DNA of 64,000 bases, taken from assembly GCA_018398585.1 (NCBI GenBank), contig JAGTTD010000020.1, forward strand, positions 23,532,350 through 23,596,349, in the 5' to 3' direction. This document shows, piece by piece, positions 25,371 to 54,084 of the stretch. How positions within the stretch are numbered: the stretch's first letter is position 1; every line of letters starts with the position of its first letter. The stretch is from Simmondsia chinensis (lineage: Eukaryota > Streptophyta > Magnoliopsida > Caryophyllales > Simmondsiaceae). Both the position numbers and the translations under genes were made by a program. The notes below the pieces were generated by a model that saw nothing but the letters and a program-made list of their open reading frames with translations, was not told the origin of the DNA and did no database searches.

Positions 25371-25516
25371 ACATGGGCTGACCCGACCCAACCCAACCCA
25401 ACCCGACCCAATCCAGAACCATCATCCTATCACTTCGTGGCTATGGGTCAAATGTTGGATGGGTCATGTTGGTTCTTAACCCAACCCACCCAAATCCAAC
25501 TTATGTGCACCCCTAA
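25371..25516. repeat. GACCC-type dispersed repeat cut by the MULE
   Basis: Runs of GACCCAACCC and GGGTCATG, ending ATGTGCACCCCTA. The MULE target duplication (25512-25520) includes the last bases of this repeat, so the MULE landed at its edge. Confidence 0.6.
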
Positions 25517-25520
25517 TTTA

Positions 25521-25650
25521 GGGAAATCACCAGAAATAGACCCCCCAGCCCCCATTTAACCTAAAACAGACCCCTATAACCTTAAATAAACCTTTTTAGA
25601 CAAAAATGCCCTCCCACTCCTAACCCCCCCACCCGTCCTCTTTCTCTCTC
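25521..25650 (+). repeat. Left terminal inverted repeat of the MULE
   Basis: Shares with the right end, in inverted order, GGGAAATCACCAG, CCTTAAATAAACCTTTTT, GACAAAAATGCCCTCC, CCGTCCTCTTTCTCTC-like and CTCATTTAATGC. Similarity becomes patchy after about 130 bp. Confidence 0.9.
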
Positions 25651-25994
25651 CTCATTTAATGCGCACAGTGCCACCCGTCCCTTCCATCTCTCCTTCTCTC
25701 TCCTCACATTTAATTCAACAGCTGTAATTTTTGAATTTACCCCCTCCCCTTCACGTCTTCTCTCTTCCCCAAAACCAAACGTGTTTTGCAAGCCACCTTC
25801 TCTCTCCTCTTTCTTACACCCATTCATTCTCTCTCTCCTCTTTCTCTCACCCGTTCATCCTCTTTCTCCTCTAACTTCAGCTGCGATTCTCGTTCCCGTG
25901 GGTGTATCTGCAGAGGTGTGTGGCGATATCCTCTGTTTTCACACCTTCATCCTTGCCCTGTTGCTGCTCTAGGGTTTAATCACCATTTCCGAAG
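25650..25994 (+). promoter_or_regulatory. Probable promoter/5' leader exon of the Ulp1 gene
   Basis: CT-rich sequence running to CGAAG|GTGAGC, a strong plant 5' splice site at 25994/25995. The first acceptor that leads to an ATG is TTTATTTCAG at 35209, directly before the first coding codon. I infer a non-coding exon in the TIR, joined over a 9215-bp intron. No transcript evidence is available here. Confidence 0.55.
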
Positions 25995-26079
25995 GTGAGC
26001 ACCGATTTTCGAAGTTATTTTTGTAGGGAAATGTATAGTATCTGTTAGGGTTTAGGGTTTTGGTATTAGTGGCTTTTTT

Positions 26080-29000
26080 GAATAAGGCTTAGTGTGTTTT
26101 ATTGGTGTAAAATCAACTTCTGGCATGTTTTGTGGTATAATGATGTAAAATCAACGTTTATAAGTGTGTTTCATGTAATCCCTATGTGTCGACACACATG
26201 CATGGTTTATGAGCAAGCATACACTGTCTAAGATTGGTTTTAATGGTGTAAAATCAACTTGTGCGGACTTTTTTTAAGCAATTAGTGGGTTACGAGCAAC
26301 CATACACTGTGTATGTTTGGTTTTAATGGTGAATAACCAACTTGTGTTTGTGTATGTTGAGTAATAAAGGTGTATGATCAACATACACTGTCTATGAATG
26401 GTTTTAATGGTGTAAAATCAACTTGTGCAGACTTTTTTTAAACAATTAGTGGGTTAGGAGCAACCATACACTGTGTATGTTTGGTTTTAATAGTGAATAA
26501 CCAACTTTTGTTTGTGTATGTTGAGTAATAAAGGTGTATGATCAACATACACTGTCTGTGATTGGTATTAATGGTGTAAAATCAACTTGTGTAGACTTTT
26601 TTTAAGCAATTAGTGGGTTAAGAGCAACCATACACTGCGTATGCTTGGTTTTAATGGTGAGTAACCAACTTGTGTTTGTGTATGTTGAGTAATAAAGGTG
26701 TATGATCAACATACACTGTCTATGATTGGTTTTAAGGGTGAAAAATCAATTTGTATAGACGTTTTTTAAACAATTAGCGGGTTAGGAGCAACCATACATT
26801 GTGTATGTTTGGTTTTAATGGTGAATATCCAACGTGTGTTTGTGTATGTTGAATAATAAAGGTGTATGATCAACATACACTGTCTATGATTGGTTTTAAT
26901 GGTGTAAAATTAACTTATGTAGATGTTTTTTAAGCAATTAATGGGTTAGGAGCAACCATACATTGTATATGTTTGGTTTAAATGGTGAATATCCAACTTG
27001 TGTTTGTGTATGTCGAGTAATAAAGGTGTATGATCAACATACACTGTCTATGATTGGTTTTAATGGTGTAAAATCAACTTGTGCAGACTTTTTTTAAGCA
27101 ATTAGTGGGTTAGGAGCAACCATACACAGTGTATGTTTGGTTTAAATGGTGAATAACCAACTTGTGTTTGTGTATGTTGAGTAATAAAGGTGTATGATCA
27201 ACATACACTGTCTATGATTGGTTTTAATGGTGTAAAATCAACTTGTGTAGACTTTTTTTAAACAATTAGTAGGTTAGGAGCAACCATACATTCTGTATGT
27301 TTGGTTTTAATGGTGAATAACCAACTTATGTTTGTGTATGTTGAGTAATAAAGGTGTATGAGCAAGCATACACTGTCTATGATTGATTTTAATGGTGTAA
27401 AATCAACTTGTGTAGACTTGTTTTAAGCAATTAGTGGGTTAGGAGCAACCATACATTGTGTATGTTTGGTTTTAATGGTGAATAACCAACTTGTGCTTGT
27501 GTATGTTGAGTAATAAAGGTGTATGAGCAAGCATACACGGTCTATGATTGGTTTTAATGGTGTAAAATCAACTTGTGCAGACTTTTTTTAAGTAATTACT
27601 GGGTTAGAAGCAACCATACATTCTGTATGTTTGGTTTTAATGGTGAATATCCAACTTCTGTTTGTGTATGTTGAGTAATAAAGGTGTATGATCAACATAC
27701 ACTGTCTATGATTGGTTTTAGTGGTGTAAAATCAACTTGTGTAGACGTTTTTTAAGCAATTAGTGGGTTAGGAGCAACCATACATTGTATATGTTTGTTT
27801 TTAATGGTGAATATCCGACGTGTGTTTGTGCATGTTGAGTAATAAAGGTGTATGATAAACATACACTGTCTATGATTGGTTTCAATGGTGTAAAATCAAC
27901 TTGTGTAGACTTTTTTAAGCAATTAGTGGGTTAGGAGCAACCATACATTGTGTAGGTTAGGTTTTAATGGTGAATAACCAACTTGTGTTTGTATATGTTG
28001 AGTAATAAACATGTATGAGCAAGCATACACTGTCTATGATTGGTTTTAATGGTATAAAATCAACTTGTGTAGACTTTTTTTAAGTAATTAGTGGGTTAGG
28101 AGCAACCATACATTGTGTATGTTTGGTTTTAATGGTGAATATCCAACGTATGTTTGTGTATGTTGAGTAATAAAGGTGTATGATCAACATACCCTGTCCA
28201 TGATTGGTTTTAATGGTGTAAAATCAACTTGTGCAGACTTTTTTTAAGCAATTAGTGTGTTAGGAGCAACCATACATACTGTACGTTTGGTTTTAATATT
28301 GAATAACCAACTTGTGTTTGTGTATGTTGAGTAATAAAGGTGTATGAGCAAGCATACACTGTCTATAATTGGTTTTAATGCTGTAAAATCAACTCGTGTA
28401 AACTTTTTTTAAGTAATTACTGGGTGAGGAGCAACCATACATTCTATATGTTTGGTTTTAATGGTGAATAACGAACTTGTGTTTGTGTATGTTGGGTAAT
28501 AAAGGTGTATGAGCGAGCATACACTGTCTATGATTGGGTTTAATGGTGTAAAATCAACTTATGTAGACTTTTTTTAAGTAATTAGTGGGGTAGGAGCAAC
28601 CATGCATTATATATGTTTGGTTTTAATGGTGAATAACCAACTTGTGTTTGTGTATGTTGAGTAATAAAAGGGTATGATCAACATACACTGTCTATGATTG
28701 GTTTTGATGGTGTAAAATCAACTTGTGTAGACTTTTTTTAAGCACTTAGTGGGTTATGAGCAACCATATATTCTGTATGTTTGGTTTTAATGGTGAATAT
28801 CCAACGTGTGTTTGTGCATGTTGAGTAATAAAGGTGTATGATCAACATACACGGTCTATGATTGGTTTTAATGGTATAAAATCAACTTGTGTAGACGTTT
28901 TTTAAGCGATTACTGGGATAGGAGCAACCATACATTGTGTATATTTGGTTTTAATGGTGAATAACCAACTTGTGTTTGTGTATGTTGAGTAATAAAGGTG

Positions 29001-32000
29001 TATGATCAACATACCCTGTCTATGATTGGTTTTAGTGGTGTAAATTCAACTTGTGTAGACTTTTTTTAAGCAATTAGAGGGTTAGGAGCAACCATACATT
29101 CTGTATGTTTGGCTTTAATGGTGAATAACCAACTAGTGTTTGTGTATGTTGAGTAATAAAGGTGTATGGGCAAGCATACACTTTCTATGATTGGTTTTAA
29201 TGGTGTAAAATCAACTTGTGTAGACTTTTTTTAAGTAATTAGTGGGTTACGAGCAACCATACATTGTGTATGTTTGGTTTTAATGGTGAATAACCAACTT
29301 GTGTTTGTGTACGTTGAGTAATAAAGGTGTATGATCAACATACACAGTCTATGATTGGTTTTAATGGTGTAAAATCAACTTGTGTTGACTTTTTTTAAGC
29401 AATTACTGGGTTAGGAGCAACCATACATTCTGTATGTTTGGTTTTAATGGTGAATAACCAACTTGTGTTTGTGTATGTTGAGTAATAAAGATGTATGAGC
29501 AAGCATACACTGTCTATGATTGGTTTTAATGGTGTAAAATCAACTTGTGTAGACTTTTTTTAAGCAATTAGTGGGTTATGAGCAACCATACACTGTGTAT
29601 GTTTGGTTTTAATGGTGAATAACCAACTTGTGTTTGTGTATGTTGAGCGTTAAAGGTGTATGAGCAAGCATACACTGTCTATGATTGGTTTTAATGGTAT
29701 AAAATCAACTTGTGTAGACTTTTTTTAAGTAATTAGTGGGTTAGGAGCAACCATACATTGTGTATGTTTAGTTTTAATGGTGAATAACCAACTTGTGTTT
29801 GTGTATGTTGAGTAATAAAGGTGTATGATCAACATACACTGTCTATGATTGGTTTTAATGGTGTAAATTCAACTTGTGTAGACGTTTTTTAAGCAATTAG
29901 TGGGTTAGGAGCAACCATACATTGTGTATGTTTGGTTTAAATGGTGAATAACCAACTTGTGTTTGTGTATGTTGAGTAATAAAGGTGTATGATCAACATA
30001 CACTGTCTATGTTTGGTTTTAATGGTGTAAAATCAACTTGTGTAGACTTTTTTTTAAGCAATTAGTAGGTTAGGAGCAACCATACATTCCGTATGTTTGG
30101 TTTTAATAGTGAATAACCAACTTGTGCTTGTGTATGTTGAGTAATAAAGGTGTATGAGCAAGCATACACTGTCTATGATTGGTTTTAATGGTGTAAAATC
30201 AACTTGTGTAGACTTTTTTTAAGCAATTACTGGGTTAGGAGCAACCATACATTCTGTATGTTTGGTTTTAAGGGTGAATATCCAACTTCTGTTTGTGTAT
30301 GTTGAGTAATAAAGGTGTATGATCATTATACACTGTCTATGATAGGTTTTAATGGTGTAAAATCAACTTGTGTAGACCTTTTTTAAGCAATTAGTGGATT
30401 AGGAGCAACCATACATTGTGTATGTTTGTTTTTAATGGTGAATATCCAACGTGTGTTTGTGCATGTTGAGTAATAAAGGTGTATGATCAACATACACCGT
30501 CTATGATTGGTTTTAATGATGTAAAATCAACTTGTGTAGAATTTTTTAAGCAATTAGTGGGTTAGGAGCAACCATACATTGTGTAGGTTTGGTTTTAATG
30601 GTGAATAACCAACTTGTGTTTGTGTATGTTGAGTAATAAACGTGTATGAGCAAGCATACACTGTCTATGATTGGTTTTAATGGTATAAAATCAACTTGTG
30701 TAGACTTTTTTTAAGTAATTAGTGAGTTAGGAGCAACCGTACATTGTTATGTTTGGTTTTAATGGTGAATATCCAACGTGTGTTTGTGTATGTTGAGTAA
30801 TAAAGGTGTATGATCAACATACCCTGTCCATGATTGGTTTTAATGGTGTAAAATCAACTTGTGCAGACTTTTTTTAAGCAATTAGTGTGTTAAGAGCAAC
30901 CATACATTCTGTACGTTTGGTTTTAATGGTGAATAACCAACTTGTGTTTTTGTATGTTGAGTAATAAAGGTGTATGAGCAAGCATACACTGTTTATAATT
31001 AGTTTTAATGGTATAAAATCAACTCGTGTAGACTTTTTTTAAGTAATTAGTGGGTGAGGAGCAACCATACATTTTGTATGTTTGGTTTTAATGGTGAATA
31101 ACCAACTTGTGTTTGTGTATGTTGAGTAATAAAGGTGTATGAGCAAACATACACTGTCTATGATTGTTTTTAATGGTGTAAAATCAACTTATGTAGCCTT
31201 TTTTTAAGTAATTAGTGGGTTAGGAGCAACCATACATTTTGTATGTTTGGTTTTAATGGTGAATAACCAACTTGTGTTTGTGTATGTTGAGTAATAAAGG
31301 TGTATGATCAACATACACTGTCTATGATTGGTTTTGATGGTGTAAAATCAACTTTTGTAGACGTTTTTTAAGCAATTAGTGGGTTAGGAGCAACCATGCA
31401 TTGTGTATGTTTGGTTTTAATGGTGAATAACCAACGTGTATTTGTGCATGTTGAGTAATAAAGGTGTATGATCAACATACACTGTCTATGATTGGTTTTA
31501 ATGGTGTAGAATCAACTTGTGTAGACGTTTTTTAAGCAATTACTGGGTTAGGAGCAATCATACATTGTGTATCTTTGGTTTTAATGGTGAATAACCAACT
31601 TGTGTTTGTGTATGTTGAGTAATAAAGGTGTATGATCAACATACCCTGTCTATGATTGATTTTAGTGGTGTAAATTCAACTTTTGTAGACTTTTTTTAAG
31701 CAATTAGTGGGTTAGGAGCAACTATACATTCTGTACGTTTTGTTTTAATGGTGAATAACCAACTTGTGTTTGTGTATGTTGAATAATAAAGGTGTATGAG
31801 CAAGCATACACTGTCTATGATTGATTTTAATGGTGTAAGGTCAACTTGTGTAGACTTTTTTTAAATAATTAGTGGGTTACGAGAAACCATACATTGTGTA
31901 TGTTTGGTTTTAATTGTGAATGACCAACTTGTGTTTGTGTATGTTGAGTAATAAAGGTGCATGATCAATATACACTGTCTATGATTGGTTTTAATGGTGC

Positions 32001-35000
32001 AAAATCAACTTGTGTAGACTTTTTTTAAGCAATTACTGGGTTAGGAGCAACCATACATTCTGTATGTTTGGTTTAATGGTGAATAACCAACTTGTGTTTG
32101 TGTATGTTGAGGAATAAAGGTGTATGAGCAAGCATACACGGTCTATGATTGGTTTTAATGATGTAAAATCAACTTGTGCAGACTTTTTTTAAGTAATTAC
32201 TGGGTTAGGAGCAACCCTACATTCTGTATGTTTGGTTTTAAGGGTGAATATCCAACTCCTGTTTGTGTATGTTGAGTAATAAAGGTGTATGATCAACATA
32301 CACTGTCTATGATTGGTTTTGATGGTGTAAAATCAACTTGTGTAGACGTTTTTTGAGCAATTAGTGGGTTAGGAGCAACCATACATTGTGTATGTTTGGT
32401 TTTAATGGTGAATATCCAACGTGTGTTTGTGCATGTTGAGTAATAAAGGTGTATGATAAACATACACTGTCTATGATTGGTTTTAATGGTGTAAAATCAA
32501 CTTGTGTAGACTTTTTTAAGCAATTAGTGGGTTATGAGCAACCATACATTGTTTAGGTTTGGTTTGGTTTTAATGGTGAATATCCAACGTGTGTGTATGT
32601 TGAGTAATAAAGGTGTATGATCAACATACACTGTCTATGATTGGTTTTAATGGTGTAAAATCAACTTGTGTAGACTTTTTTTAAGCACTTAGTGGGTTAA
32701 GAGCAACCATACATTATGTATGTTTGGTTTTAATGGTGAATATCCAACTTCTGTTTGTGTATGTTGAGTAATAAAGGTGTATGAGCAAGCATACACTGTT
32801 TATGATTGGTTTTTATGGTGTAAAATCAACTTGTGTAGACTTTTTTTAAGTAATTAGTGGGTTAGGAGCAACTATACATTGTGTATGTTTGGTTTTAACG
32901 GTGAATAACCAACTTGTGTTTGTGTATGTTTAGTAATAAAGGTGTATGAGCAAGCATACACTGTCGATGATTGGTTTTAATGGTGTGAAATCAACTTGTG
33001 AGACTTTTTTTAAGTAATTAGTGGGTTAGGAGCAACCATACATTCTGTATGTTTGGTTTTAATGGTGAATAACCAACTTGTGTTTGTGTATGTTGAGTAA
33101 TAAAGGTGTATGATCAACATACACTGTCTGTGATTGGTTTTAATGGTGTAAAATCAACTTGTGTAGACGTTTTTTAAGCAATTAGGGGGTTAGGAGCAAC
33201 CATACATTGTGTATCTTTGGTTTTATTGGTGAATAACCAACTTGTGTTTGTGTATGTTGAGTAATAAAGGTGTATGATCAACATACACTGTCTGTGATTG
33301 GTTTTAATGGTGTAAAATCAACTTGTGTAGACTTTTTTTAAGCAATTAGTGGGTTATGAGCAACCATACACTGTGTATGTTTGGTTTTAATGGTGAATAA
33401 CGAACTTGTGTTTGTGTATGTTGGGTAATAAAGGTGTATGAGCGAGCATACACTGTCTATGATTGGTTTTAATGGTGTAAAATCAGCTTGTGTGGACTTT
33501 TTTTAAGTAATTAGTGGGTTAGGAGCAACCATACATTGTGTATGTTTGGTTTTAATGGTGAATAACTAACTTGTGTTTGTGTATGTTGAGTAATAAAGGT
33601 GTATGAGCAAGCATACACTGTCCATGATTGGTTTTAATGGTGTAAAATCAACTTGTGTAGACTTTTTTTAAGTAATTAGTGGGTTAGGAGCAACCATACA
33701 TTGTGTATGTTTGGTTTTATTGGTGAATAACCAACTTATGTTTTTGTATGTTGAGTAATAAAGGTATATGATCAACATACACTGTCTATGATTGGTTTTA
33801 ATCGTGTAAAATCAACTTGTGTAGACGTTTTTTAAGCAATTAGTGGGTTAGGAACAAGCATACATTGTGTATGTTTGGTTTTAATGGTGAATAACCAACT
33901 TGTGTTTGTGTATGTTGAGTAATAAAGGTGTATGAGCAAGCATACACTGTCTATGATTGGTTTTAATGGTGTAAAATCAACTTGTGAGACTTTTTTTAAG
34001 TAATTAGTGGGTTAGGAGCAACCATACATTCTGTATGTTTGGTTTTAATGGTGAATAACCAACTTGTGTTTGTGTATGTTGAGTAATAAAGGTGTATGAT
34101 CAACATACACTGTCTGTGATTGGTTTTAATGGTGTAAAATCAACTTGTGTAGACGTTTTTTAAGCAATTAGTGGGTTAGGAGCAACCATACATTGTGTAT
34201 CTTTGGTTTTAATGGTGAATAACCAACTTGTGTTTGTGTATGTTGAGTAATAAAGGTGTATGATCAACATACACTGTCTGTGATTGGTTTTAATGGTGTA
34301 AAATCAACTTGTGTAGACTTTTTTTAAGCAATTAGTGGGTTATGAGCAACCATACACTGTGTATGTTTGGTTTTAATGGTGAATAACGAACTTGTGTTTG
34401 TGTATGTTGGGTAATAAAGGTGTATGAGCGAGCATACACTGTCTATGATTGGTTTTAATGGTGTAAAATCAGCTTGTGTGGACTTTTTTTAAGTAATTAG
34501 TGGGTTAGGTGCAACCATACATTGTGTATGTTTGGTTTTAATGGTGAATAACCAACTTATGTTTGTGTATGTTGAGTAATAAAGGTGTATGAGCAAGCAT
34601 ACACTGTCCATGATTGGTTTTAATGGTGTAAAATCAACTTGTGTAGACTTTTTTTAAGTAATTAGTGGGTTAGGAGCAACCATACATTGTGTATGTTTGG
34701 TTTTATTGGTGAATAACCAACTTGTGTTTTTGTATGTTGAGTAATAAAGGTGTATGATCAACATACACTGTCTATGATTGGTTTTAATCGTGTAAAATTA
34801 ACTTGTGCAGACGTTTTTTAAGCAATTAGTGGGTTAGGAACAAGCATACATTGTGTATGTTTGGTTTTAATGGTGAATAACCAACTTGTGTTTGTGTATG
34901 TTGAGTAATAAAGGTGTATGATCAACATACACTGTCTATGATTGGTTTGGATGGTGTAAAATCAACTTGTGTAGACTTTTTTTAAGCAATTAGTGGGTTA

Positions 35001-35150
35001 TGAGCAACCATACACTGTGTATGTTTGGTTTTAATGATGAATAACCAACTTGTGTTTGTGTATGTTGAGTAATAAAGGTGTATGATCAACATACACTGTC
35101 TATGATTGGTTTTAATGGTGAATAACCAACTTGGTTTAATGTTTTTTAAG
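26080..35150 (+). repeat. Left satellite array, 164-bp dimeric unit, about 54 copies
   Basis: The unit is 164 bp, made of two diverged ~82-bp halves. The first has GTGTATGATCAACATACAC then GGTTTTAATGGTGTAAAATC; the second has CATACATTGTGTATG then GGTTTTAATGGTGAATAACC. Both halves contain CATACAC/GTGTATG palindromes. The loop of the first palindrome has two forms, ATCAA and AGCAAG. Larger duplications are visible: a 16-unit (about 2.63-kb) block repeated side by side, and a 6-unit (about 985-bp) block (33000s and 33985s). Copy number is length divided by period. The array fills the inferred first intron of the Ulp1 gene. Confidence 0.95.
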
Positions 35151-35209
35151 TAATTAATGGTGTATCATGGGTTTTATTTTGGGTTTGTGAGGTTTTGCTT
35201 TTATTTCAG

Positions 35210-38200
35210 ATGGCATTTTACTCACGCAGGAAGAGCTGTTCAGCAGTGGAGGTTGGTTACATTTTCCCAAGGAGTTGCTGGAAATATCTGCAATTTAACA
35301 AATTGGGAGTGTCTACCAAAGTTGTGACAGAGATTCAGGAAATCTTGAGTGACGACGAAACCAAGGTTTGGCATAGTATCCATTTGAATTATGTGACTTT
35401 TTACAATTACATTTGTGATCCCTTATTAACCAAAAGTGTTTTGTATTACAGCTTGCCCTTGCTTCACAATACAATGTCGGGCATCTGCTTGAGCTGAGTG
35501 AGACTAATGTCAGCTTCTGGCATAATTTAATTCACCTTGTCCTTCTCCACCAGGTGGCCAACCCAAATCCCGAGAGTTATCATTCTTATTTGGTGGGAAG
35601 TTAGTGCACCTCGCGAGGAGGGAATTTTGCATTCTAACCTGCTTGAGATATGCCGATGTAGAAGAGGTACGGGGTGGTCCCAACAGGCTGGTTGCCAAGT
35701 ACAGCATGAGGGGGAAGATGACTAGGCAGCAGCTGCTTGAAGCATGCAGAACCTGCTCCATCATGGAGGACCAGGTGAAGCTTGCTATTGCCTACCTGGT
35801 GGAGGGTCTACTGTTCGCCAAACACAAGCGAACAGGCATTGAGCCGAACATCCTGGCCCTCGTGGACGACGTGGACTCTTTCAACAGTGTTGCTTGGGGA
35901 TCCTTGAGCTGGAAATTCTTGGTGCGGAAGCTCAAGGGTTTCGTTGCAAAAATGCAACACAGTTTAGAAAGGACCTACTCCGTCCACGGGTTCTATGACG
36001 TGGTTTCCGTATTTGCCCTGGAAACCCTTCCAGAACTTGCCAAGGTCGGGGTGGTGAGGGTTGGCAACCAGCCTCTTGGGCGGATCCTTAACTGGAAGAT
36101 GTGTGTTAAGGTTCCGTACCCCATGCTGTTCTCAATGGTATTCGATTAGGTAATAATACATTATGTTGTTGCTGTTTTACTACTAGTTGTTTCATATCAT
36201 TTGGGTTAGATTACTAACGTTCATATGATGTATTTTACTGTGATCAGCAATTCAATGCCAAGCCGATTGGACTGACGAGTGCGGAAGCCAATCAGCCTAA
36301 TCTACAAGGCATTCTTTTTGCTGATGTTGGTGAGGAGGGGCTTCAATCTCCTGTTAAGAAAATGCAAGCAGATCCAGGTGCTGAACCAGTACCATTGGCA
36401 ACTTCGTACCCCTTGCCGGCATCCCAGGAGGAACCACTCACCCAATTTGGCGTATCAATCGGTATTGACACTTTGTTTTGTGTTTATTTAATTGCATTTT
36501 TATCCTTGTAAGTACTATATTATTCCAATTCATGTTTATGACAATTTGGAGGACTTATTGCAGGTTATGAGAGATTCGAAGCGATGGAGAAAGATGTACA
36601 AAGCTTGCGGATGCACTTCGAAAGCAGACTTGAAGCGCAGCAGCTTCAGCTGTAAATGTACGAACGACGGTTTGAGGCTCAAGAGGCAATGATTAAGGAG
36701 CTCTTAGACCGTCCACCGCATGCCACATCCCCACAGATCTATTCACCGACTTCCGCTCATCCATCCCCAATTGAGCAAGCAATTATTATTTCTCCTACAC
36801 GTGATGGGTAAGACACTACGGATCCTTGTTATTGTTATAATTTGGTATGTTTTCATGCATGTTGAGGTTTATTGACTTTGGTATTTGCTCTGCCAACCAG
36901 GGACAAGGAAAATGTCAACAAGGAACCATCGTCTACGCATGTGGATGGTGTTGAAAACTTGATGACATTGTCCAAGACAGTTTTGAGGTTTGGGCAAGAG
37001 AGGAGGAACCCCAAGCTAAATCCCAAGTACAAAGGTGAAGAATGGACCGCGGAGGGTAAGAGCAAACGGGCAAGGATGACCCAACCTGGACCGGAACCGG
37101 TTCTGCCCTTCGATCCACTCCAACCTCCCTCCAAAGAAGACAAAAAACAATTTGATGTTTTTTACAAAAGTTTCCAAGCAAGGGTTAAGAAGTGAGTGTG
37201 ATTTCACACTCTACTTTTTGATAATCAGTATGTAAATGTTTCCAAAATGCATCTTTCTTATGGGATGCTTATATATCATGCTTCTTATTGTATGTTACAG
37301 AGATTTGAATACTCCCCTTGAGTTACCTAATGATCAACATATGGATTTCACTGTTTTGACTGCCACGACAGGTCAATTTTGGTATCGGTTGATAAACGAT
37401 GACGCCTGGCTTACGGATGAGGCATGTTTCCCATCATGAAAGTTTTTTCGTGTGATTACTGTAATTGGATCCCAACCTTTTGTTGTTGGTGTGTCAACTA
37501 CTTAGTGGGGTGTGATTAATAATATACCGTGTATGGTAGGTTTTAAGGGTGTGAAATCCACTTGTATAGGTGTGTTTTAAGTAATAAGTGGTGTATGATC
37601 AATCATACACCGTGTATGATATGTTTTAATGGTGTAAATCGATATGTATGATCAACTTGTTTATGTGTTTTTGAAGTGATTAGTGGTGTATGGTTAACAA
37701 TATACCATGTATGATAGGATTTACTTGCCTAAGAACAACTTGTGTTAGGGTGTTTCAACTAATTAGTGGTATGTTTGCAGGAAATGGATGTAGTTCTGCA
37801 CTACATTCTGAAGAAGAAACATCAGTGGCCAGAGCATTTCGACCAGAGGGCAACATGCGCGTTTAAGACGGTTGCTCCTCGATTTGGACCCCTATACAAA
37901 CAGACTCAAAGCGGAGAAATCCCGATCGAGGCAGTCTTTGCTGATTTTGAATCGTTGTTTCTTGCCGGGGATGACACATATGGGGTCCGCTGCCACGACG
38001 TGGATCGGATATACATGCCCATCAATCAACCTAGTCAACATTGGTTCCTTGCCGCCATCCATTTTAAAGAATGGCGGATACAGGTAATTGATTCTTTATA
38101 CTCCGCCGCAGCCAAGGAATCAAGATTAGAACATGTAGAACCAATTGCAATATTGCTTCCATATGCTCTAGATATGGTTAATTTTTGGGATGTACGAAAG

Positions 38201-38575
38201 GACCTCATACATTTCAAAGGCAAGCCTTTTTTGATCACTTACGACCAGGGTGAATGTCCATAACAGATGGGGTATGACCTCTACTTCCTATGCAATTTTA
38301 CTATTCCGTTCATTCGGCCTTTTGGTTATTAAGCGGATGCAAAATAGTCATTACTTACGGTGATTTATAGTTTCTGATTGTCTCACCTGTATTATTATAA
38401 ACTGCAGGTCAGATTGTGGCTTTTTGTTGTAAAGTTTATTGAATTTTTGCTTACAAATGGACTCGGCATCCACCAATGCACGCAAGCACAGATGGGAAAA
38501 ATGCAGCTGAATACCTGTGTACACTTGTACAGACATGGAAGAAAGAAACAGATGCAATTGTATACATGTGAATAA
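35210..38575 (+). pseudogene. DUF1985/Ulp1-like cysteine protease gene of the MULE
   Basis: Exons inferred from GT-AG borders and frame: 35210-35365, 35452-36137, 36248-36461, 36564-36807, 36901-37191, 37301-37421, 37781-38271, 38408-38575. Product: N-terminal DUF1985 region (HLIHLVLLHQ-type helix, FGGKLVHLARREF), a coiled-coil stretch (YERFEAMEKDVQSLR, RRFEAQEAMIKELL), a basic linker, then a C48 Ulp1 domain with WLTDE, the catalytic His of QHWFLAAIHF (38039-38041), Asp of VIDSL (38090-38092) and Cys of SDCG (38415-38417). Ulp1 enzymes cleave SUMO-type tails; the role of the MULE-borne versions is not known. Breaks: frame change at a CCC run near 35570, TAA at 36653-36655 and 38261-38263, and a frame change in the T5 run at 38421-38425. 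The intron starting 37422 has a GC donor. Confidence 0.85.
37500..37780 (+). repeat. Degenerate satellite block in the last long Ulp1 intron
   Basis: About three to four diverged ~82-bp monomers, recognisable by GTGTATGATCAATCATACACC, ATGTTTTAATGGTGTAAATC and TTTTAAGTAATAAGTGG. Same orientation as the left array and as the gene. Confidence 0.85.
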
Positions 38576-38600
38576 AATTATGTGATGTGTATATATTATA

Positions 38601-39150
38601 TGTAGAAGTGCCACCTCTCCCTGCGGCTCAGCCGTCACTGGCCCACCATCGCCGCTGCTAGAACCACTTTCATTAGCAGTTGGAACGGCTAGATATAGCG
38701 CGAAATTGAAGGGCAAACTGTACATTTTTCACTGGCCCAAGTGTTCCCTGACTTGTACAGTGCCTCTCAATCTCTGAATTTCCAACTCTAACGCTTGTTA
38801 TTATCTTTTTCGAGGGTGATTATCTTTTTGTCAAGTGCCTCTCTTTTTCCCCCTGTTAATCACAACAGAAATCAAGAAAAATGTGAAAACGTAATCAAGG
38901 AGAAATATGAATAGAATACAGATAGTTGAGTGTAAATATGAAACTCATCATGCGGATGCAATTCGCACCATTACCGTACACCATGTGTGATTGATCATAT
39001 ACCACTAATTACTTGAAACACTGTTGATACACCAATATATCTGTAGAAGTGCCACCTCTCCCTAAGGCTCATCTGTAACTGGCCCACCACCACCACTGCT
39101 AGAACCACTTACATTAGCAATTTGAACGGCTAGATATATCATGAAATTGG
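38601..39150 (-). repeat. Duplicated ~108-bp segment, coding-like on the minus strand
   Basis: 38601-38710 and 39043-39150 are direct copies. Read on the minus strand both keep a Ser/Gly-rich frame with SGSSSG(D/G)GGPVT(A/D)EP, then GEVALL. This could be a duplicated terminal exon or UTR piece of the transposase gene; the second copy has a stop in the frame. Confidence 0.5.
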
Positions 39151-39835
39151 GGAACCGTGTATGCTTGGCTTCCTGTCCAACTACTCTATTTATAGGCAAA
39201 GGCATACAAGGTACAGAGTAGGTGGTAGTAGAGGTTATTAAATTGGGGAAAATCGTGGGAGAGGGGGAGGATAAAGTAGGTGGTAGTTGAGGTTATTAAA
39301 TGTCTTGATTGGTAGTCCATTATGACCCCTGAACATTCAATTTTCAACCCCCAAACAACTCATCATACATTATGTATGATAAGTCATACAGCACTAATTA
39401 CTTGAAACACACCTATGTAAGTCCATTTTACTCATTTATAACTTAACATACACAATGTATGACTCATCATACATAACTATTTATTTCAAACACACCAATA
39501 TAACTTCATTTTACACCAATATATCCCATCATACACCAATAATTACTTGAAAAACACTCATAAAAGCGATTGAACCCCATTATACCAGCAAAACCATAAA
39601 TATGTATGCAAAGCTTGATTTTACACCCAAACAACTCATCATACATTGTGTATAATAAGTCATACAACACTAATTACCTGAAACACACCTATGTAAGTCC
39701 ATTTTACACATTTATAACTTAACATACACAATGTATGACTCATCATACACAACTATTTATTTCACACACACCAATATAACTTCATTTTTCACCAATATAT
39801 CCCATCATACACCAATAATTATATTGTAAAAAATA
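38970..39835 (-). repeat. Degenerate satellite block between the two genes
   Basis: Diverged monomers in inverted orientation (CATACATTATGTATG, CACTAATTACTTGAAAC, CCATTTTAC). A ~276-bp stretch is itself doubled: 39350-39550 recurs at 39625-39825. Orientation is the sense of the transposase gene, whose stop lies 55 bp away. Confidence 0.8.
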
Positions 39836-39889
39836 AAATATATAATGTAAATAAATAAAAAATTAAAATACATCAACACATCACACCAG

Positions 39890-42523
39890 TCAAGAAGGGA
39901 CTTGAGAAGAAGGACCGCAGGAGTTTGATGAAGTGCCTTCGGCACTAGGACGCAGAGCAATTAGATTCTTGCACATGGATCGGTTATGCCCGTGTTCCTT
40001 GCACCGACTGCATCTTTGATGAACACACTCCTCGCCGACAGATGGAATCCTCCTCTTCCGCCTCCTCCCAGAAGTGGTTCGCACATCAGGTGGAAGAAGA
40101 TTCATGCCAGCTACATCATGCGGGATACGCCAGTTACTTATGTGCGGCATCGGGTAGACGACACCTCTGTACGACTCGTACCATTTTTCTCTACTGTAGT
40201 ACGGCGAGCATAAGTCGTACATACCATAAGGACTATGCCGTACGATGGCTAACGCATGCTCACAAGGAAGCTGCTCAAGCTGAAACCTGCAGCAGGTACA
40301 TGTCCTCTACGACATATCTAGCCAGAAATTTTTCTCCCCATCGACGACGTCGAAAGTATGATCATCAGCTCGCACAATCTGCACGGCGCAAAAACAATAA
40401 TAAATTAAAAAATAAATTAAACAAAAAACCAATAAAACATATCATCAATTATACGGAGCTTACTATCATCGTTCTTGATAATTTCAATCTGTCTTGTAAT
40501 TTCTTTTCGACGTCGGGGGACATTGTACTAGTGCAAGCTTCAGCCTTGGCTCTTCTGTCATGAAACCACTTCTGCAACAGGAGCCTAAACTCGTCAACGA
40601 GGGCAGTAATTGGATAGTCACGCACCTTGACCAATACAGCATTCATGGATTCCGAAATATTTGTCGTCATTATGTTGTACCGAAGACAAGGGGAGTGGGA
40701 ACGAGTCCACTTGTCCAGTCCCACATCTTCCAAGTAATCTTTAGCCCCGGGTACGGCACAACATAAACTGTAAAACAAACTATGGAACTCTTGAATGTTG
40801 TATGCTTTAGCTGCTTTGTAGTAGTACTGATGTAACTGCTTCGATTTGCTCTTGAATATGGCCTTCAAGTTGTTCAACAAGTGGTACATGCACAGCCCGT
40901 GAAATGTGTTGGGAAAAACTTCTTCCACCACTCGTTGGATGCTTCGGTATCTATCAGATACAATGACATGGACAATAGGCTCCCCAATGACTTCCTTCAA
41001 TCTACCGAGGAACCAATGCCACGATGCATCATTCTCTGAATCACCGATACCAACGGCAATAGGGAAATTTGCTGGTTGGCATCGTGGCAAACAGCCATGA
41101 ACAGAACACCCCGGTATTTTTCCTTCAGATGTGTTGCGTCAATGCTCACAACAGGCCCGCAAAACCGGTACCCTTTCAGTGAAGCCTCAAACACAATAAA
41201 GAGGTACTGAAACCTGCTCTCGTCATCTATCTGTAAATAAAACGTGGTACCAGGGTTAGTCTGTTGGAGGACTTGCAGATAAGCAGGCAAGAATGCATAT
41301 GACTCTTCGACAGTACCCAATCTAACATTGTCGTATGCAAACTCTCTCGCCCTCCATGCAACACTGTAGCCGACATCGACACCATAGCAACTGCGGATGT
41401 CATCTATGACATCCCGTGGCTTGAACACTCGTCCGGGGTTGACAAGTTTCTTACGGACGCACTCCCCGACGACCCAACTGGTAGCCTGCCTGTGTCTAAC
41501 AGTGGTGAGATCGGTAGGGTGGGTATGACTATTTTCAACTTTTGTAACCAACCAAAACCCTCCTTCTGCTGGACACGTAGCTTGAACCCTCCATGTGCAA
41601 CCCTCTTGCACACAACAAATAACCGTTAAGGATTTGTTAGACTTGAAGCTCTTGAATTCAAATTTTTCCCTCATGGCAATTACTCCCAGGTTAGTCAACA
41701 AATCCTTCTTCGATTTAAAGACTTGATGCACCTCGATTACATCAACCATACTACCCTGCCCATATACCCCGTCAATCTGGCTCCTCTCATGACCGGAACA
41801 AACATCATCGTCAACAGTGGCTTGGACGTCTGGTTGGACATTCGGTTCCACTGCAGGTTCAACAGTAGGAGGTGATGTACCCACTTCAAGGCAAATATTC
41901 TGCTGGTCAGAAATGTACCCATGGGGAGGTGATACGTCGGTTGCAATCGGTTGCACATGGGATAAATTTATATTATCCAAATGATCGCACGGACTTTGAT
42001 TGGAATTTTCCCAATCTTCACCGGTTGTTGTCGCTGCCGCCATAGGTATGTCAAACTCCAGTTCAGATGCATCTCCACGGGCTACTTCTTCCATCCCCGC
42101 GTTAATACATCCACCAAAACTATCAGGCACCACAAGGTCCAAACCACCATTGTTCTCGTCACCATCTGGTAGTGTTTAATTAAGACTATCTTGATCTCCA
42201 AAGTAAGGAGAACTATCAACCGTAGACTCAACAGTGACGTACAAGGTATACTTAGCCATATCTTTTTTTGCCAGTGCCTTCAAAACCATTACTGATCTAT
42301 CACTAGTGACATCATACAATGGGATGTCCCATTTGCCGGTACGAAGTTGCAATTGCAACTTCGAACTTGCATCCACCGGAACACCCATCAACTCTACCAA
42401 AGACCTTTGCAAGCCAACAAAGTCAGTCTTATCATCCAAAATAACAAAATCCAACTTCCCACCAACATACTCTGCCCTCTCGTTAAAGTGTCCACCGTAC
42501 TGAACCATAGCAACATCTGCCAT
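39890..42523 (-). pseudogene. mudrA-like: MULE transposase, MuDR type with SWIM finger
   Basis: Coding exons 42523-40464 and 40378-39890, with GTAAGC...GTGCAG borders. The start is ATGGCAGATG just after the acceptor TTCATAG. Domains: a ubiquitin-fold/PB1-like N-terminus (about 42500-42200), an acidic linker, a MuDR DNA-binding region (VFKSKKDLL...CCVQEGCTWRVQA), a DDE core (SIDATHLKEKYRG; HVIVSDRYRSI; CMYHL; NISESMN), a SWIM finger (CTCCRFQLEQLPCEHA) and a C-terminal CX2CX4HX4C knuckle (CSRCKEHGHNRSMC). It would be about 850 residues, nuclear, binding the element ends and catalysing transposition. Breaks: TAA at 42176-42178 in the linker, a frame change at an A/T run near 41065, TAG at 40307-40309 in the SWIM region. 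All domain-defining residues remain, so loss of function is recent, or some breaks are sequencing errors. Confidence 0.9.
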
Positions 42524-42539
42524 TTCTATGAACACGAAA

Positions 42540-44660
42540 GTAACATGATATTACACCACTAATTACATGAGACACACCAAGATAAAATGAAATAACATAA
42601 TTTAAATCATTAATACACGGGGTATGATAAGTCACACACCACTATACTAGTAATTACTTGAAAAAATCTGAAAAAGTTGATATTCTACCATTAAAACATG
42701 TCATACATAGTGTATGTTGATCATACACCATTAATTACTCAACATACACAAACACAAGTTGGACATTCATCATTAAAACCAAACATACACAGTGTATGGT
42801 TGCTTATAACCCACTAATTACTTAAAAAAAGTCTACACAAGTTGATTTTATAGCATTAAAACCAATCATACACAGTGTATGTTGCTCATACACCTTTAAT
42901 GCTCAACATACACAAACACAAGTTGGATATTCACCATTAAAATCAAACATACACAGTGTATGGTTGCTCATAACCCACTAGTTACTTAAAAAACGTCTAC
43001 ACAAGTTGATTTTACAGCATTAAAACCAATCATACATAGTGTATGTTGATCATACACCTTTATTACTCAACATACACAAACACAAGTTGGTTATTCACCA
43101 TTAAAACCAAACATACACAGTGTATGGTTGTTCATAACCCACTAATTGCTTAAAAAACGTCTACACAAGTTGATTTTACAGCATTAAAACTAATCATACA
43201 CAGTGTATGTTGATCATACACCTTTATTACTCAGCATACACAAACACAAGTTGGTTATTCACTATTAAAACCAAACATACACAGTGTATGGTTGCTCATA
43301 ACCCACTAATTGCTTAAAAAAAGTCTACACAAGTTGATTTTATACCATTAAAATCAATCATAGACAGTGCATGTTGATCATACACTTTTATTACTCAACA
43401 TACACAAACACAAGTTGGATATTCACCATTAAAACTAAACATACACAGTGTATGGTTGCTCATAATCCACTAATTGCTTAAAAATATGGTTGCTCATAAC
43501 CCACTAATTGCTTAAAAAAAGTCTACACAAGTTGATTTTACACCATTAAAACCAATCATAGACAGTATATGTTGATCATACACCTTTATTACTCAATATA
43601 CACAAACACAAGTTGGTTATTCACTATTAAAACCAAACATACACAGTGTATGGTTGCTCATAACCCACTAATTGCTTAAAAAAAGTCTACACAAGTTGAT
43701 TTTACACCATTAAAATCAATCATAGACAGTGTATGTTGATCATACACCTTTATTACTCAACATACACAAACACAAGTTGGTTATTCACCATTAAAACCAA
43801 ACATACAGAATGTATGGTTGCTCGTAACCCACTAATTATTTAAAAAAAGTCTACACAAGTTGATTTTACACCATTAAAACCAATCATAGACAGTGTATGC
43901 TTGCTCATACACCTTTATTACTCAACATACACAAACACAAGTTGGTTATTCACCATTAAAACCAAACATACAGAATGTATGGTTGCTACTAACCTACTAA
44001 TTGCTTAAAAAAAGTCTGCACAAGTTGATTTTACACCATTAAAACCAATCATAGACAGTGTATGTTGATCATACACCTTTATTACTCAACATACATAAAC
44101 ACAAGTTGGTTATTCACCATTAAAACCAAACACACAGAATGTATGGTTGCTCCTAATCCACTAATTTGCTTAAAAAACGTCTACACAAGTTGATTTTACA
44201 CCATTAAAACCAATAATAGACAGTGTATGTTGATCATACACCTTTATTACTCAACATACACAAACACAAGTTGGATATTCACCATTAAAACCAAACATAC
44301 ACAATGTATGGTTGCTCCTAACCCACTAATTGCTTAAAAAACGTCTATTCAAGTTGATTTTACACAATTAAAACCAATTATAGACAGTGTATGTTGATCA
44401 TACACCTTTATTACTCAACATACACAAACACAAGTTGGTTATTCACCATTAAAATCAAACATACACAGTGTATGGTTGCTCCTAACTCACTAATTGCTTA
44501 AAAAAAGTCTACACAAGTTGATTTTACACTATTAAAACCAATCATAGACAGTGTATGTTGATCATACACCTTTATTACTCAACATACACAAACACAAGTT
44601 GATTATTCACCATTAAAACCAAACATACACAATGTATGGTCGCTCCTAACCCACTAAATG
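42540..44660 (-). repeat. Right satellite array, about 12 copies, inverted
   Basis: The same 164-bp dimer as the left array but reverse-complemented (CAACATACACAAACACAAGTTGG and so on). More regular toward the right; degenerate at 42540-42690 next to the coding exon. A local ~33-bp duplication of the TATGGTTGCTCATAA-to-TTGCTTAAAAA segment occurs near 43455-43520. It fills the inferred first intron of the transposase gene (42526-44700). Confidence 0.95.
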
Positions 44661-44700
44661 AGGATACATTAACGACAATGTCAACAAATGATCATTTTAC

Positions 44701-45069
44701 CTTCAATATCTGATCTGAAAACCATGAAATGTGTGTCACGACTCAACCTTGAACCTACAGCAATGCCACGAAGCTTTAAACACGATCTTACTAGGGCTTC
44801 TTCTTCTTCTTCTGAGGGCCCAATATAGCAGAACGACAAACGGAAGATGAAAAAAATGGAGCTTGGGAATTCAGATTGAGAGAAAAATAACAAAGAAGAG
44901 TGAATAAGAGGTGAGTAAATGGGCGGGAAGTGAGAAGGGAAGGAGAAAGTAAGCAACAAGTTACATGACATAAAGTAAAAATATATACTTTTGCATTAAA
45001 TAAGGAGAGAGAAAATGGATGGGGAGGGGGTAAAGTAAACGGCTGGGCATTAAATGAGGAGAGAGAATG
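44701..45069 (-). promoter_or_regulatory. Probable promoter/5' leader exon of the transposase gene
   Basis: On the minus strand this CT-rich stretch leads to TTGAAG|GTAAAATG at 44701/44700, a good splice donor. The next acceptor is TTCATAG at 42526, just before the transposase start codon. The arrangement mirrors the left end. No transcript evidence. Confidence 0.5.
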
Positions 45070-45198
45070 GGAGAGAAAGAGGACGAGTGGGAAGGGCAGG
45101 GTTGGAGGGCATTTTTGTCCAAAAAGGTTTATTTAAGGTTTTGGAGGTCTATTTAAGGTTAAATTAGGGGGGGGGGTGTCTAAATCTGGTGATTTCCC
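45070..45198 (-). repeat. Right terminal inverted repeat of the MULE
   Basis: Inverted partner of 25521-25650. Carries a G10 run at 45167-45176 where the left TIR has only C6, plus CATTTTTGTCCAAAAAGG and GGTTTATTTAAGG. Confidence 0.9.
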
Positions 45199-45207
45199 CC
45201 TAATTTA

Positions 45208-53400: not shown

Positions 53401-54084
53401 CGTCTTGCTCTCAAAGCTTGTGACCATGAACTCGAAGAAAAAGATCGAGAAATGACGGAATTGAAGCTCGAAAAACAACAGAGGAAGCAACAGATCAACG
53501 AGCTCGAGAGTGTTGTGAAACTTAAACAAGCTGAAGCTGACATGTTTCAACTTAAAGCTGATGAGGCAAGACGAGAAGCCGAGATGTTACAGAAAATTGC
53601 TTTGGCTAAGTCAGAGAAATCGGAAGAGGATTATGCTAGTAGTTATCTTAAACTGAAGTTGAGCGAGGCAGAAGCAGAAAAACAATATCTCCTACAGAAA
53701 ATGAAGCTTCAGGAAAGTTCTCGTGTTGTCCATGGTAACAACGATGGGCACGATCCTTCACAAATGTATTCAAAAATACAGGTGATGTAGCATAACTTGT
53801 TATCCGAAAGCAAAACTTGATATTATTTTTTCTAAAACTAAAAACGAATGAATTACAAAACTATATTTATAGAAAAAGGAAATCCCTAAGAGAATATTAG
53901 ATAAGATAAAATAGATACTAATTCAAATAGGAAACTACTTTTCCTAAAAATATGATATGATAAAAAAACTGAATCAAATGAAATTGTGTTACATCCACAG
54001 GACTTACTGAAAAACATGTACAATGTGTCGTCTAATGCTGATGGTCAACCTAGCGAGAGGAGCGCTGGCCGAAAAAACACCTGA
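50426..54084 (+). CDS. OBE1/2-like: OBERON-type PHD finger and coiled-coil protein
   Basis: Three coding exons: 50426-51425, 53243-53781, 54001-54084 (joined 540 codons). The borders GTACAT...TTGAAG and GTGATG...CCACAG keep the frame. OBERON1/2 (also called PVIP, potyvirus VPg-interacting proteins) are nuclear proteins needed for meristem and root development. Seen: the conserved OBE domain (about 70-165: LRNIAEERVDIISEKMQ, RVQLEVLVAIK, GIQAFLHPN), a Cys/His-rich PHD finger (about 187-256: CEICTNRNGFCNVC, CRWIGCDLCSHWTHTDC), then a long charged coiled coil in exon 2. The final 27 codons in exon 3 are polar. The intact frame, unlike the neighbouring elements, suggests a working gene. The 1817-bp intron 1 has gained an inverted pair of LINE/SINE tails. 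Confidence 0.92.
52010..52216. mobile_element. Head-to-head pair of LINE/SINE 3' tails
   Basis: 52010-52125 is a minus-strand tail (read backward: AGGTTGGGGATCCTCGG...GCACTGGGACTGTTG). 52126-52216 is a plus-strand tail (AAGTTGCGTACATC, GCACTGGGTTTGTTGTTG). The two diverge from a shared centre, so the pair could fold as a hairpin in the OBERON pre-mRNA. Confidence 0.8.
52430..52715. mobile_element. MITE-like element in intron
   Basis: Ends CCTGTTTGGCTAAACT and AGTTTGGCCAAACAAACC are near inverted copies. The inner sequence is rich in AAAAAGTGCTTT/AAAGCACTTTT. No coding capacity. Confidence 0.65.

Follow-up and report, generated by a model that had tools for sequence, protein, structure and literature searches.

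What do long satellite arrays do between the ends of a transposon and the start codons of its genes? The question is raised by a 19,678-bp MULE that sequence inspection places at positions 25521-45198 of the window, the 64,000-nucleotide stretch of Simmondsia chinensis DNA analysed here.

A MULE with two convergent genes

Two genes were recognised among open reading frames of at least 100 aa, and they converge, as the initial annotation had described; the order of terminal inverted repeat (TIR), splice donor, satellite array, acceptor and start codon that it reported is likewise present at either end. The perfect 9-bp target-site duplication (TSD) is also real, with CCTAATTTA standing exactly on both sides, and 9-bp duplications flank the C5 sibling copy (AATAATTAT) and the diverged relative C18 (a run of A). 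The description of the inverted ends as exact is true of the tips only: the first 14 bp are identical, but the outer 140 bp align at 130 positions, of which 116 match. The features of the element are as follows.

25512..25520, TSD CCTAATTTA, left copy
25521..25660, + strand, left TIR, its 14-bp tip identical to the right tip
25661..25994, + strand, promoter and noncoding exon 1 predicted for the DUF1985-Ulp1 gene, with a 3' box (TTTAATCACCATTTyC..AAG) kept in three lineages
25995..35209, + strand, predicted intron 1 of the DUF1985-Ulp1 gene (GTGAGC...TTTCAG)
26204..35160, + strand, left satellite array, built of some 54 monomers (164 bp each, in two 82-bp halves)
35210..36146, + strand, exons 2-3, start codon and DUF1985 domain, one frame break in the window copy
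36248..37422, + strand, exons 4-7, linker regions, one in-frame stop
37473..37770, + strand, three diverged satellite units in the intron preceding the Ulp1 catalytic exon
37781..38572, + strand, exons 8-9, Peptidase_C48 (Ulp1), one in-frame stop in the window copy
38977..39870, - strand, diverged satellite units in the space separating the convergent genes
39890..42523, - strand, MULE transposase gene with DBD_Tnp_Mut and MULE domains and a frame break not shared by the C5 sibling
42526..44700, - strand, predicted intron 1 of the transposase gene
42651..44657, - strand, right satellite array of about 13 monomers, in the opposite orientation to the left one
44701..45058, - strand, promoter and noncoding exon 1 predicted for the transposase gene, with donor GAAG/GTAAAA
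45059..45198, - strand, right TIR
45199..45207, TSD CCTAATTTA, right copy

The transposase is of the MULE/MuDR type, matching PF10551 (6.6e-12) and PF03108 (1.3e-06) in two overlapping open reading frames. The gene opposite it contains an Ulp1 domain (PF02902, 6.6e-10) and also DUF1985 (PF09331), one of two domains marked in the VANC proteins of Arabidopsis (PMC5735166), so that the earlier statement that the element has no VANC-like gene was wrong. The DUF1985 match in the window (E 4e-8, 33.8 bits) lies just below the Pfam cut-off of 35.1 bits, and that in a relative reaches 37.5 bits. Between two lineages the DUF1985-Ulp1 gene has a dN/dS of 0.49; its exon 7 donor is GC in the window copy and GT in two relatives. 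A single-sequence structure prediction of the DUF1985 exon was discarded (mean pLDDT 41.8), and of 7,995 candidates scored in a protein search with a DUF1985-Ulp1 query none passed. Both genes of the window copy are broken, and neither the C5 nor the C18 copy is intact; none of these three copies, which were read fully or partly (C18 excluding 13801201-13803299), is thus a proven source of protein.

The pairing of the two genes extends across the genome, where at least 150 DUF1985 domains occur and at least 56 of them lie no more than 15 kb from a listed MULE transposase; these counts are lower bounds, since only the best candidates are listed. With shifted positions, 200 sets averaged 1.3 such cases and never exceeded 5. 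All 56 listed pairs are convergent. In relatives whose ends bear the satellite repeat, the two ends can be as much as 131 kb apart. Eight pairs of ends lying 39-131 kb apart were tested, and identical TSDs flank six of them, compared with none of 56 cross pairs. Points sampled inside four widely spaced pairs fell in satellite in 8 of 8 cases.

Satellite units and predicted first introns

Identity among monomers is 92.7% in the left array, 93.5% in the right one and 92.8% when the two arrays are compared. The 82/83-bp units occupy four noncoding parts of the element, namely both presumed first introns, one internal intron and the intergenic region, and are absent from the exons, short introns and TIRs of the window copy. 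Allowing one mismatch, the core motif occurs 95 times in these four compartments and not once in the remaining element, nor in 44.3 kb of flanks. The near-palindromic core CATACACTGTGTATG has 13,794 exact occurrences, counted over the whole genome irrespective of location in such elements, versus 1 for the reversed control. Around eight other MULE loci no core was found within 1.5 kb of the MULE domain, a reach that may not include their promoters.

A core spacing of 83 bp recurs in all seven tabulated array sets, while higher-order periods vary (164, 174, 215 and 311). Spacings of 83, 73, 104, 145, 21 and 94 bp fit whole helical turns and those of 90-92 and 132 bp do not; helical phasing of the cores is suggestive. 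The unit alignment was anchored on TTTTAATGGTG, a box that is therefore conserved by construction, and was used only for the core and the sequence past the anchor. Counted by one identical pattern, anchor sites number 57 forward and 14 reverse in the window copy and 33 and 8 in C5, a few of them lying outside the arrays. The arrays are poor in CpG with an excess of TG+CA, and the 164-bp unit consensus is free of CG.

The initial annotation took each array for the first intron of its gene (9.2 kb and 2.2 kb), and the splice sites it named are present: donors G/GTGAGC at 25994/25995 and GAAG/GTAAAA at 44701/44700, acceptors TTTCAG/ATG at 35209 and TTCATAG/AAATGG at 42526. Exactly one AGGTRAG donor lies between 25521 and 35210, at 25993, and the left intron holds a single YAG preceded by at least 9 pyrimidines in 12, at 35209; by the same measure the right intron has three, the 42526 site included. 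Were the arrays left unspliced, 328 ATGs on the left and 84 on the right would precede the start codons.

A lineage whose DUF1985-Ulp1 protein is identical at 573 of 759 positions has precisely the same left acceptor, CTTTTATTTCAG/ATGGC, and the left donor AAG/GTGAG and right donor GAAG/GTAA are conserved in three and two lineages, respectively, adjoining diverged sequence; no counterpart of the right acceptor could be located in C18. Three of the four sites are therefore recognisable in lineages 20-30% diverged, and the prediction that a satellite array forms the first intron of each gene is well supported. Within the family, 24 of the 29 loci that could be aligned keep the AG of the right acceptor (a further locus did not align). 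The GT of the left donor is present in 27 of the 29 left ends compared with that of the window copy; only 10% of these 29 share the window's last exon base G, the usual form being GAAT/GTGAGC. Donor conservation among close copies was dropped as evidence because all of their sites are about 95% alike.

The first-intron location is not essential to the array. In C18 the first intron of the DUF1985-Ulp1 gene measures only about 0.4 kb and contains 2 units, and large arrays lie between the TIR tips and the promoters; with an array inside another intron and a 2-kb array between the genes, units there occupy six separate noncoding places. A third lineage has its equivalent left intron filled with an 83-bp array. 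Diverged relatives have units in first introns, Ulp1-gene introns, intergenic and TIR-to-promoter DNA, and first introns range from 2 units up to apparent tens of kilobases.

A putative platform against silencing

We consider it likely, with a probability of roughly 0.6, that the units in the four noncoding parts of this two-gene MULE act as a dense docking platform through which its own DUF1985-Ulp1 protein would remove host silencing. On the model of VANC21 and VANC6, this protein would bind the near-palindrome CATACACnGTGTATG in a density-dependent manner, and copies so bound would lose DNA methylation, be transcribed and move. Tandem amplification would multiply the sites; where conserved splice sites make a terminal array the probable first intron, it could grow by tens of kilobases and leave the proteins untouched.

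Observations favouring the platform include the union of DUF1985 and Ulp1 in a single gene convergent with the transposase, the convergence of all 56 listed genomic pairs, the confinement of the core to noncoding compartments and its excess over the reversed control, the recurrent 83-bp spacing, the units carried by each of the 30 best-matching transposase loci and 30 best-matching left ends, the dN/dS of 0.49 and, in diverged relatives, the occurrence of units in the same kinds of place as VANC21 repeats. Weighing against it, the core is common to lineages of this genome, unlike the fast-diverging targets of Arabidopsis VANC; the Arabidopsis motif YAGTATTAY is not palindromic; the three copies are all broken; the window DUF1985 match is slightly below the cut-off; spacings of 90-92 and 132 bp depart from whole helical turns; and a satellite free of function could spread along with its host element.

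More tentatively, a MULE clade may have made an anti-silencing motif into a true satellite, with a 164-bp unit and a palindromic core. Transposons of 42-131 kb, with first introns of tens of kilobases, would then be able to recruit the protein they encode at hundreds of sites, with the load spliced out, and the 13,794 genomic cores would be a by-product of transposon anti-silencing.

Neutral growth of the satellite is a less probable account, with perhaps a modest chance of being right. Tandem duplications would be tolerated in introns and spacers because they are spliced out or noncoding, and the arrays would ride with the element. Such growth accords with the widely differing array lengths of the window and C5 copies, with exons lacking cores, as expected if repeats are harmful there, and with a base composition like that of methylated noncoding DNA over time. 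It sits poorly with the recurrence of one core and its 83-bp spacing in separate noncoding places of diverged lineages, four in the window copy and six in C18, and with the retention of units in 30 of 30 transposase loci (the best of 108 matches) and 30 of 30 left ends (the best of 45), a choice by which more distant members are hardly sampled. Members without arrays, which the initial annotation had named as evidence against its reading, did not appear among them.

Subterminal repeats help to pair the ends of other DNA transposons, and the largest arrays here are subterminal and mutually inverted, as transposase-binding sites aiding end pairing might be. That role is improbable, given related units in the middle of the element, both within the Ulp1-gene intron and in the intergenic region, where pairing would not need them, the 2-kb array between the genes of C18 and an outermost TIR without a core in the window copy. 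It is very doubtful that the arrays are chiefly introns shaping the expression of both genes, the alternative raised by the initial annotation, which the flanking donors and acceptors, recognisable at three of four sites in diverged lineages, and the array-filled left intron of the third lineage favour, but which the inconstant intron position and the C18 arrays outside the promoter, in another intron and between genes count against.

The platform reading links two questions usually kept apart, the escape of transposons from silencing and the origin of satellite DNA. If the arrays are VANC-type platforms, they offer a natural length series, from 2 units to apparent tens of kilobases, for testing dependence on site number, and the series also bears on how plants splice first introns made of satellite. 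The 15-bp near-palindrome at 83-bp spacing is a clear candidate DNA target for the DUF1985-Ulp1 protein.

Comparison with VANDAL and Ulp1-bearing MULEs

Like VANDAL21/Hiun and VANDAL6, the element combines a MULE transposase with a DUF1985 companion gene (PMC5735166, PMC10398659), and its short tandem motif lies mainly in noncoding DNA. In VANDAL21 the motif occurs in VANC21 and VANB21 introns, upstream of VANA21, and in intergenic and terminal noncoding regions (PMC5735166), a similar distribution; in both systems repeats expand and contract between copies (PMC5735166, PMC10398659). In VANDAL, by contrast, there are three genes (VANA, VANB and VANC), whereas no third gene was recognised here among open reading frames of at least 100 aa; the core here is a near-perfect palindrome common to several lineages rather than YAGTATTAY, a target that diverges fast in Arabidopsis (PMC5735166, PMC10398659); the arrays reach satellite size; and the companion gene also has an Ulp1 domain, a term with no mention in PMC5735166. 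TIRs are present here, a point on which the sources disagree for VANDAL, classed as a non-TIR MULE in one review (PMC13317346) and credited with TIRs, for VANDAL21, in PMC10398659.

The KAONASHI (KI) MULEs of eudicots resemble the element in having an Ulp1 domain within a VANC-type gene, there named KIU (PMC13317346, citing Hoen 2006 and Sasaki 2022), oriented opposite to the transposase (PMC2528002), as is the Ulp1 (C48) gene here. They differ in being called non-TIR and three-gene, and first-intron satellite arrays this large are not mentioned for them in the available text of the review (PMC13317346). Ulp1-like domains occur in MULEs of grapevine, melon and rice as well, there in either orientation to the transposase (PMC2528002; see also van Leeuwen 2007), in a paper where the word 'tandem' does not occur. 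According to the review, Ulp1-bearing VANC-type elements induce hypomethylation via specific motifs, the Ulp1 part having no known precise role (PMC13317346). Such anti-silencing systems are thus already known in eudicots; what is new is the palindromic core and the satellite scale.

Element ends and satellite arrays

The perfect 9-bp target site duplication (TSD; CCTAATTTA) that the initial annotation had placed around 25521–45198 is found at those coordinates, bounding a two-gene MULE in which a DUF1985–Ulp1 gene converges with a transposase gene. In its terminal inverted repeats (TIRs), the outermost 14 bp are identical and the outer 140 bp match at 116 of 130 aligned positions.

Features of the window (arrays from Tandem Repeats Finder)
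2204–5341, −, 1045-aa ORF, cation-transporting P-type ATPase domains
10574–14135, −, broken retrotransposon frames, Copia-like on the basis of an RVT_2 domain
26204–35160, left satellite array, 164-bp period
35604–36149, +, DUF1985 exon match (E 4e-8; 33.8 bits against a cut-off of 35.1)
37766–38263, +, Peptidase_C48 exon match (E 6.6e-10)
leftward (−), MURA-type transposase, profile match
42651–44657, right satellite array, inverse of the left, 164-bp period
50426–53790, +, OBERON-like PHD-finger gene, exons with PHD_Oberon and Oberon_cc

The left and right arrays hold 54 and 13 anchor sites, respectively. Left-array monomers are 92.7% identical, with no drop of identity with the distance between monomers, and a 164-bp consensus built from 64 monomers is free of CG and has a single CHG site. 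The arrays show an excess of TG + CA and a strong depletion of CpG relative to genes and flanks: the two predicted first introns have observed/expected ratios of 0.27 and 0.19, whereas the transposase gene reaches 0.77, the first exons and parts of the Ulp1 gene 0.45–0.75 and the flanks 0.74–0.79; intergenic and intronic unit regions lie at 0.42–0.44. Such a bias may stem from past methylation of noncoding DNA followed by deamination, or from selection for units unable to hold CG methylation.

Arrays as predicted first introns

The proposed splice donors (25994/25995 and 44701/44700) and acceptors (35209 and 42526) of both first introns are present, and the left interval has only one AGGTRAG donor and only one acceptor rich in pyrimidines, each at the proposed site. 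The GT of the left donor is kept in 27 of 29 other left ends, most reading GAAT/GTGAGC, although close copies are uninformative on donor conservation because their whole sequence is about 95% alike.

Diverged lineages of the same genome offer a further comparison. A 19.2-kb relative on contig C18 (13795787–13814940, covered without 13801201–13803299; its TSD is weak because it is a run of A) has a DUF1985-side donor CGAAG/GTGAGT and acceptor CTTTTATTTCAG/ATGGC, enclosing a predicted first intron of about 0.4 kb with 2 units, and a transposase-side donor GAAG/GTAACATG. The third lineage, on C10 at 1.49 Mb, has a box TTTAATCACCATTTCC..AAAAG/GTGAG followed by a predicted 1.5-kb intron that is filled with an 83-bp array and ends in TTTTAG/ATGGC. 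On the DUF1985 side, the alignment of these lineages turns gapped and diverged immediately past the donor. Of the splice sites behind the earlier proposal that each array is the first intron of its gene, the donor and acceptor of the DUF1985 side are recognisable in both lineages and the transposase-side donor in C18; a transposase-side acceptor was sought in C18 and could not be placed. Judged from sequence, the arrays are well supported as predicted first introns. The C18 relative has arrays at five sites: of 174-bp period in the DNA separating each TIR tip from the promoter (two sites) and in the intron that divides exons 6 and 7 of the Ulp1 gene, of 83 bp in the presumed first transposase intron, and of 83/311 bp between the genes, as far as the gap at 13801201–13803299 allows.

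Core motif and copy size across the genome

The 82/83-bp units share a 15-bp near-palindromic core. Allowing up to one mismatch, the window holds 72 cores in the left predicted first intron, 19 in the right, a single one in the Ulp1-gene intron that precedes the catalytic exon and 3 between the genes, with none in the first exons, the TIRs, the rest of the Ulp1 gene including its short introns, the transposase gene or 44.3 kb of flanks. Diverged units at 37473–37770 and 38977–39870 match the arrays at about 60–70%. Across the genome (831 Mb, 35 contigs), the exact 15-mer CATACACTGTGTATG occurs 6,526 + 7,268 times, the first 100 of these places being listed by position, against 1 for the reversed control, and 83-bp core-to-core spacing (81–83 in the window) is found in all seven array sets tabulated. 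An upstream array accompanies 30 of 30 transposase loci (the best 30 of 108 matches), its period in most cases being 164 bp, twice that length, or one of 83/132/215/236 bp, and at least 12 cores lie in the inner 1.5 kb of 30 of 30 left ends (the best 30 of 45 matches); both sets include the window and its close sibling on C5. Eight other MULE loci, outside the 108, have no cores within 1.5 kb either side of the MULE domain, a reach beyond which their promoters may lie. In one of the 30 left ends (L032, G000 C1:28047247–28050792) units seem inverted (17 cores, only 3 forward anchors). Three core clusters at G000 C1:1356863–1400987, recurring at intervals of 18–19 kb with near-identical internal spacing, suggest whole elements duplicated in tandem.

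Copies differ in size. The C5 sibling spans 15.5 kb (TSD AATAATTAT) and is poorer in anchor sites, with 33 + 8 where one common pattern finds 57 + 14 for the window. Fifteen left/right end pairs more than 35 kb apart were matched by eye from match lists; among the 8 whose TSDs were compared, 6 are identical (spans of 42.0, 48.2, 63.1, 77.6, 94.0 and 130.6 kb), against 0 of 56 cross pairs. In the other two pairs, C29:24483054–24521706 and C17:11100860–11152776, the 9-bp flanks have 2 and 3 mismatches, respectively, which casts doubt on their being single insertions. Interior samples of 240 bp at eight points in four pairs (five in identical-TSD pairs, four of them on C22 and one on C8; three in C17 and C29) all hold the 164-bp satellite at 88–94% identity; the units at the two C17 points run in opposite orientations. 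On C22, the four points and listed monomers are spread over about 66 kb between the DUF1985 exon and the left end, a stretch that is probably unbroken satellite. Nested insertions may contribute to the wide spans. The 130.6-kb pair (G000 C9:19705167–19835806) has a transposase match about 3 kb from its left end on an unexpected strand, which makes a nested copy or rearrangement likely. In one survey, no Pack-MULE was longer than 7 kb (PMC6431247). First-intron satellite arrays of such size in MULEs were not met in the literature searched, whose incomplete coverage makes this weak evidence of absence.

The DUF1985–Ulp1 gene and VANDAL/KIU elements

Between the window and C18, the eight coding exons (2–9) of the DUF1985–Ulp1 gene are conserved in order, with 573 of 759 residues identical and a dN/dS of 0.49 (Nei–Gojobori), and the C18 DUF1985 exon scores 37.5 bits, above the Pfam cut-off. 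The window exon at 35604–36149 has a second, weak match to the plant mobile domain PF10536 (E 0.0024; 17.6 bits, cut-off 34.9). Both window genes are broken, the DUF1985–Ulp1 gene by a frame break within its DUF1985 exon, by two downstream in-frame stops and by a GC donor at the end of exon 7, and the transposase gene by one frame break absent from the C5 sibling; the window frame breaks may be assembly slips at homopolymers. The C5 transposase match has three stops and the C18 Ulp1 exon a frame change; at other loci of the genome, transposase frames stay open for up to 904 aa. Of the 150 DUF1985 domains listed from 521 candidates, at least 56 lie no more than 15 kb from a listed MULE transposase, and among the matches listed all 56 pairs are convergent; 200 sets of shifted positions average 1.3 and never exceed 5.

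DUF1985 is a domain of VANC proteins. Via tandemly repeated YAGTATTAY motifs, VANC21 occupies noncoding DNA in introns, between genes and at the element ends, including repeats in VANC21 and VANB21 introns and upstream of VANA21 (PMC5735166). In some Vandals the VANC gene has captured an Ulp1 domain (KIU), and KIU-type elements also induce hypomethylation through specific motifs (PMC13317346, citing Sasaki et al. 2022). The initial annotation was therefore mistaken in finding no VANC-like gene.

By analogy with VANC21 and VANC6, on which every step beyond the anatomy rests, an intact member would express its own DUF1985–Ulp1 protein, which would bind clustered cores, and these clusters, both on the member itself and on sibling copies, would lose silencing marks. 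TIR-proximal promoters would then transcribe both genes through the arrays, splicing would remove the arrays and the transposase would mobilise copies; tandem duplication would add sites, with an intronic or spacer location keeping the proteins intact. VANDAL proper has three genes, whereas a third gene was not recognised here; binding of the cores is here a prediction; and the sources disagree on VANDAL ends, one calling Vandal a non-TIR MULE (PMC13317346) and another mentioning TIRs of VANDAL21 (PMC10398659). For these reasons the element is not classed as VANDAL proper. Sharing the DUF1985–Ulp1 gene with VANDAL/KIU elements, it would nonetheless work like an anti-silencing MULE of that kind.
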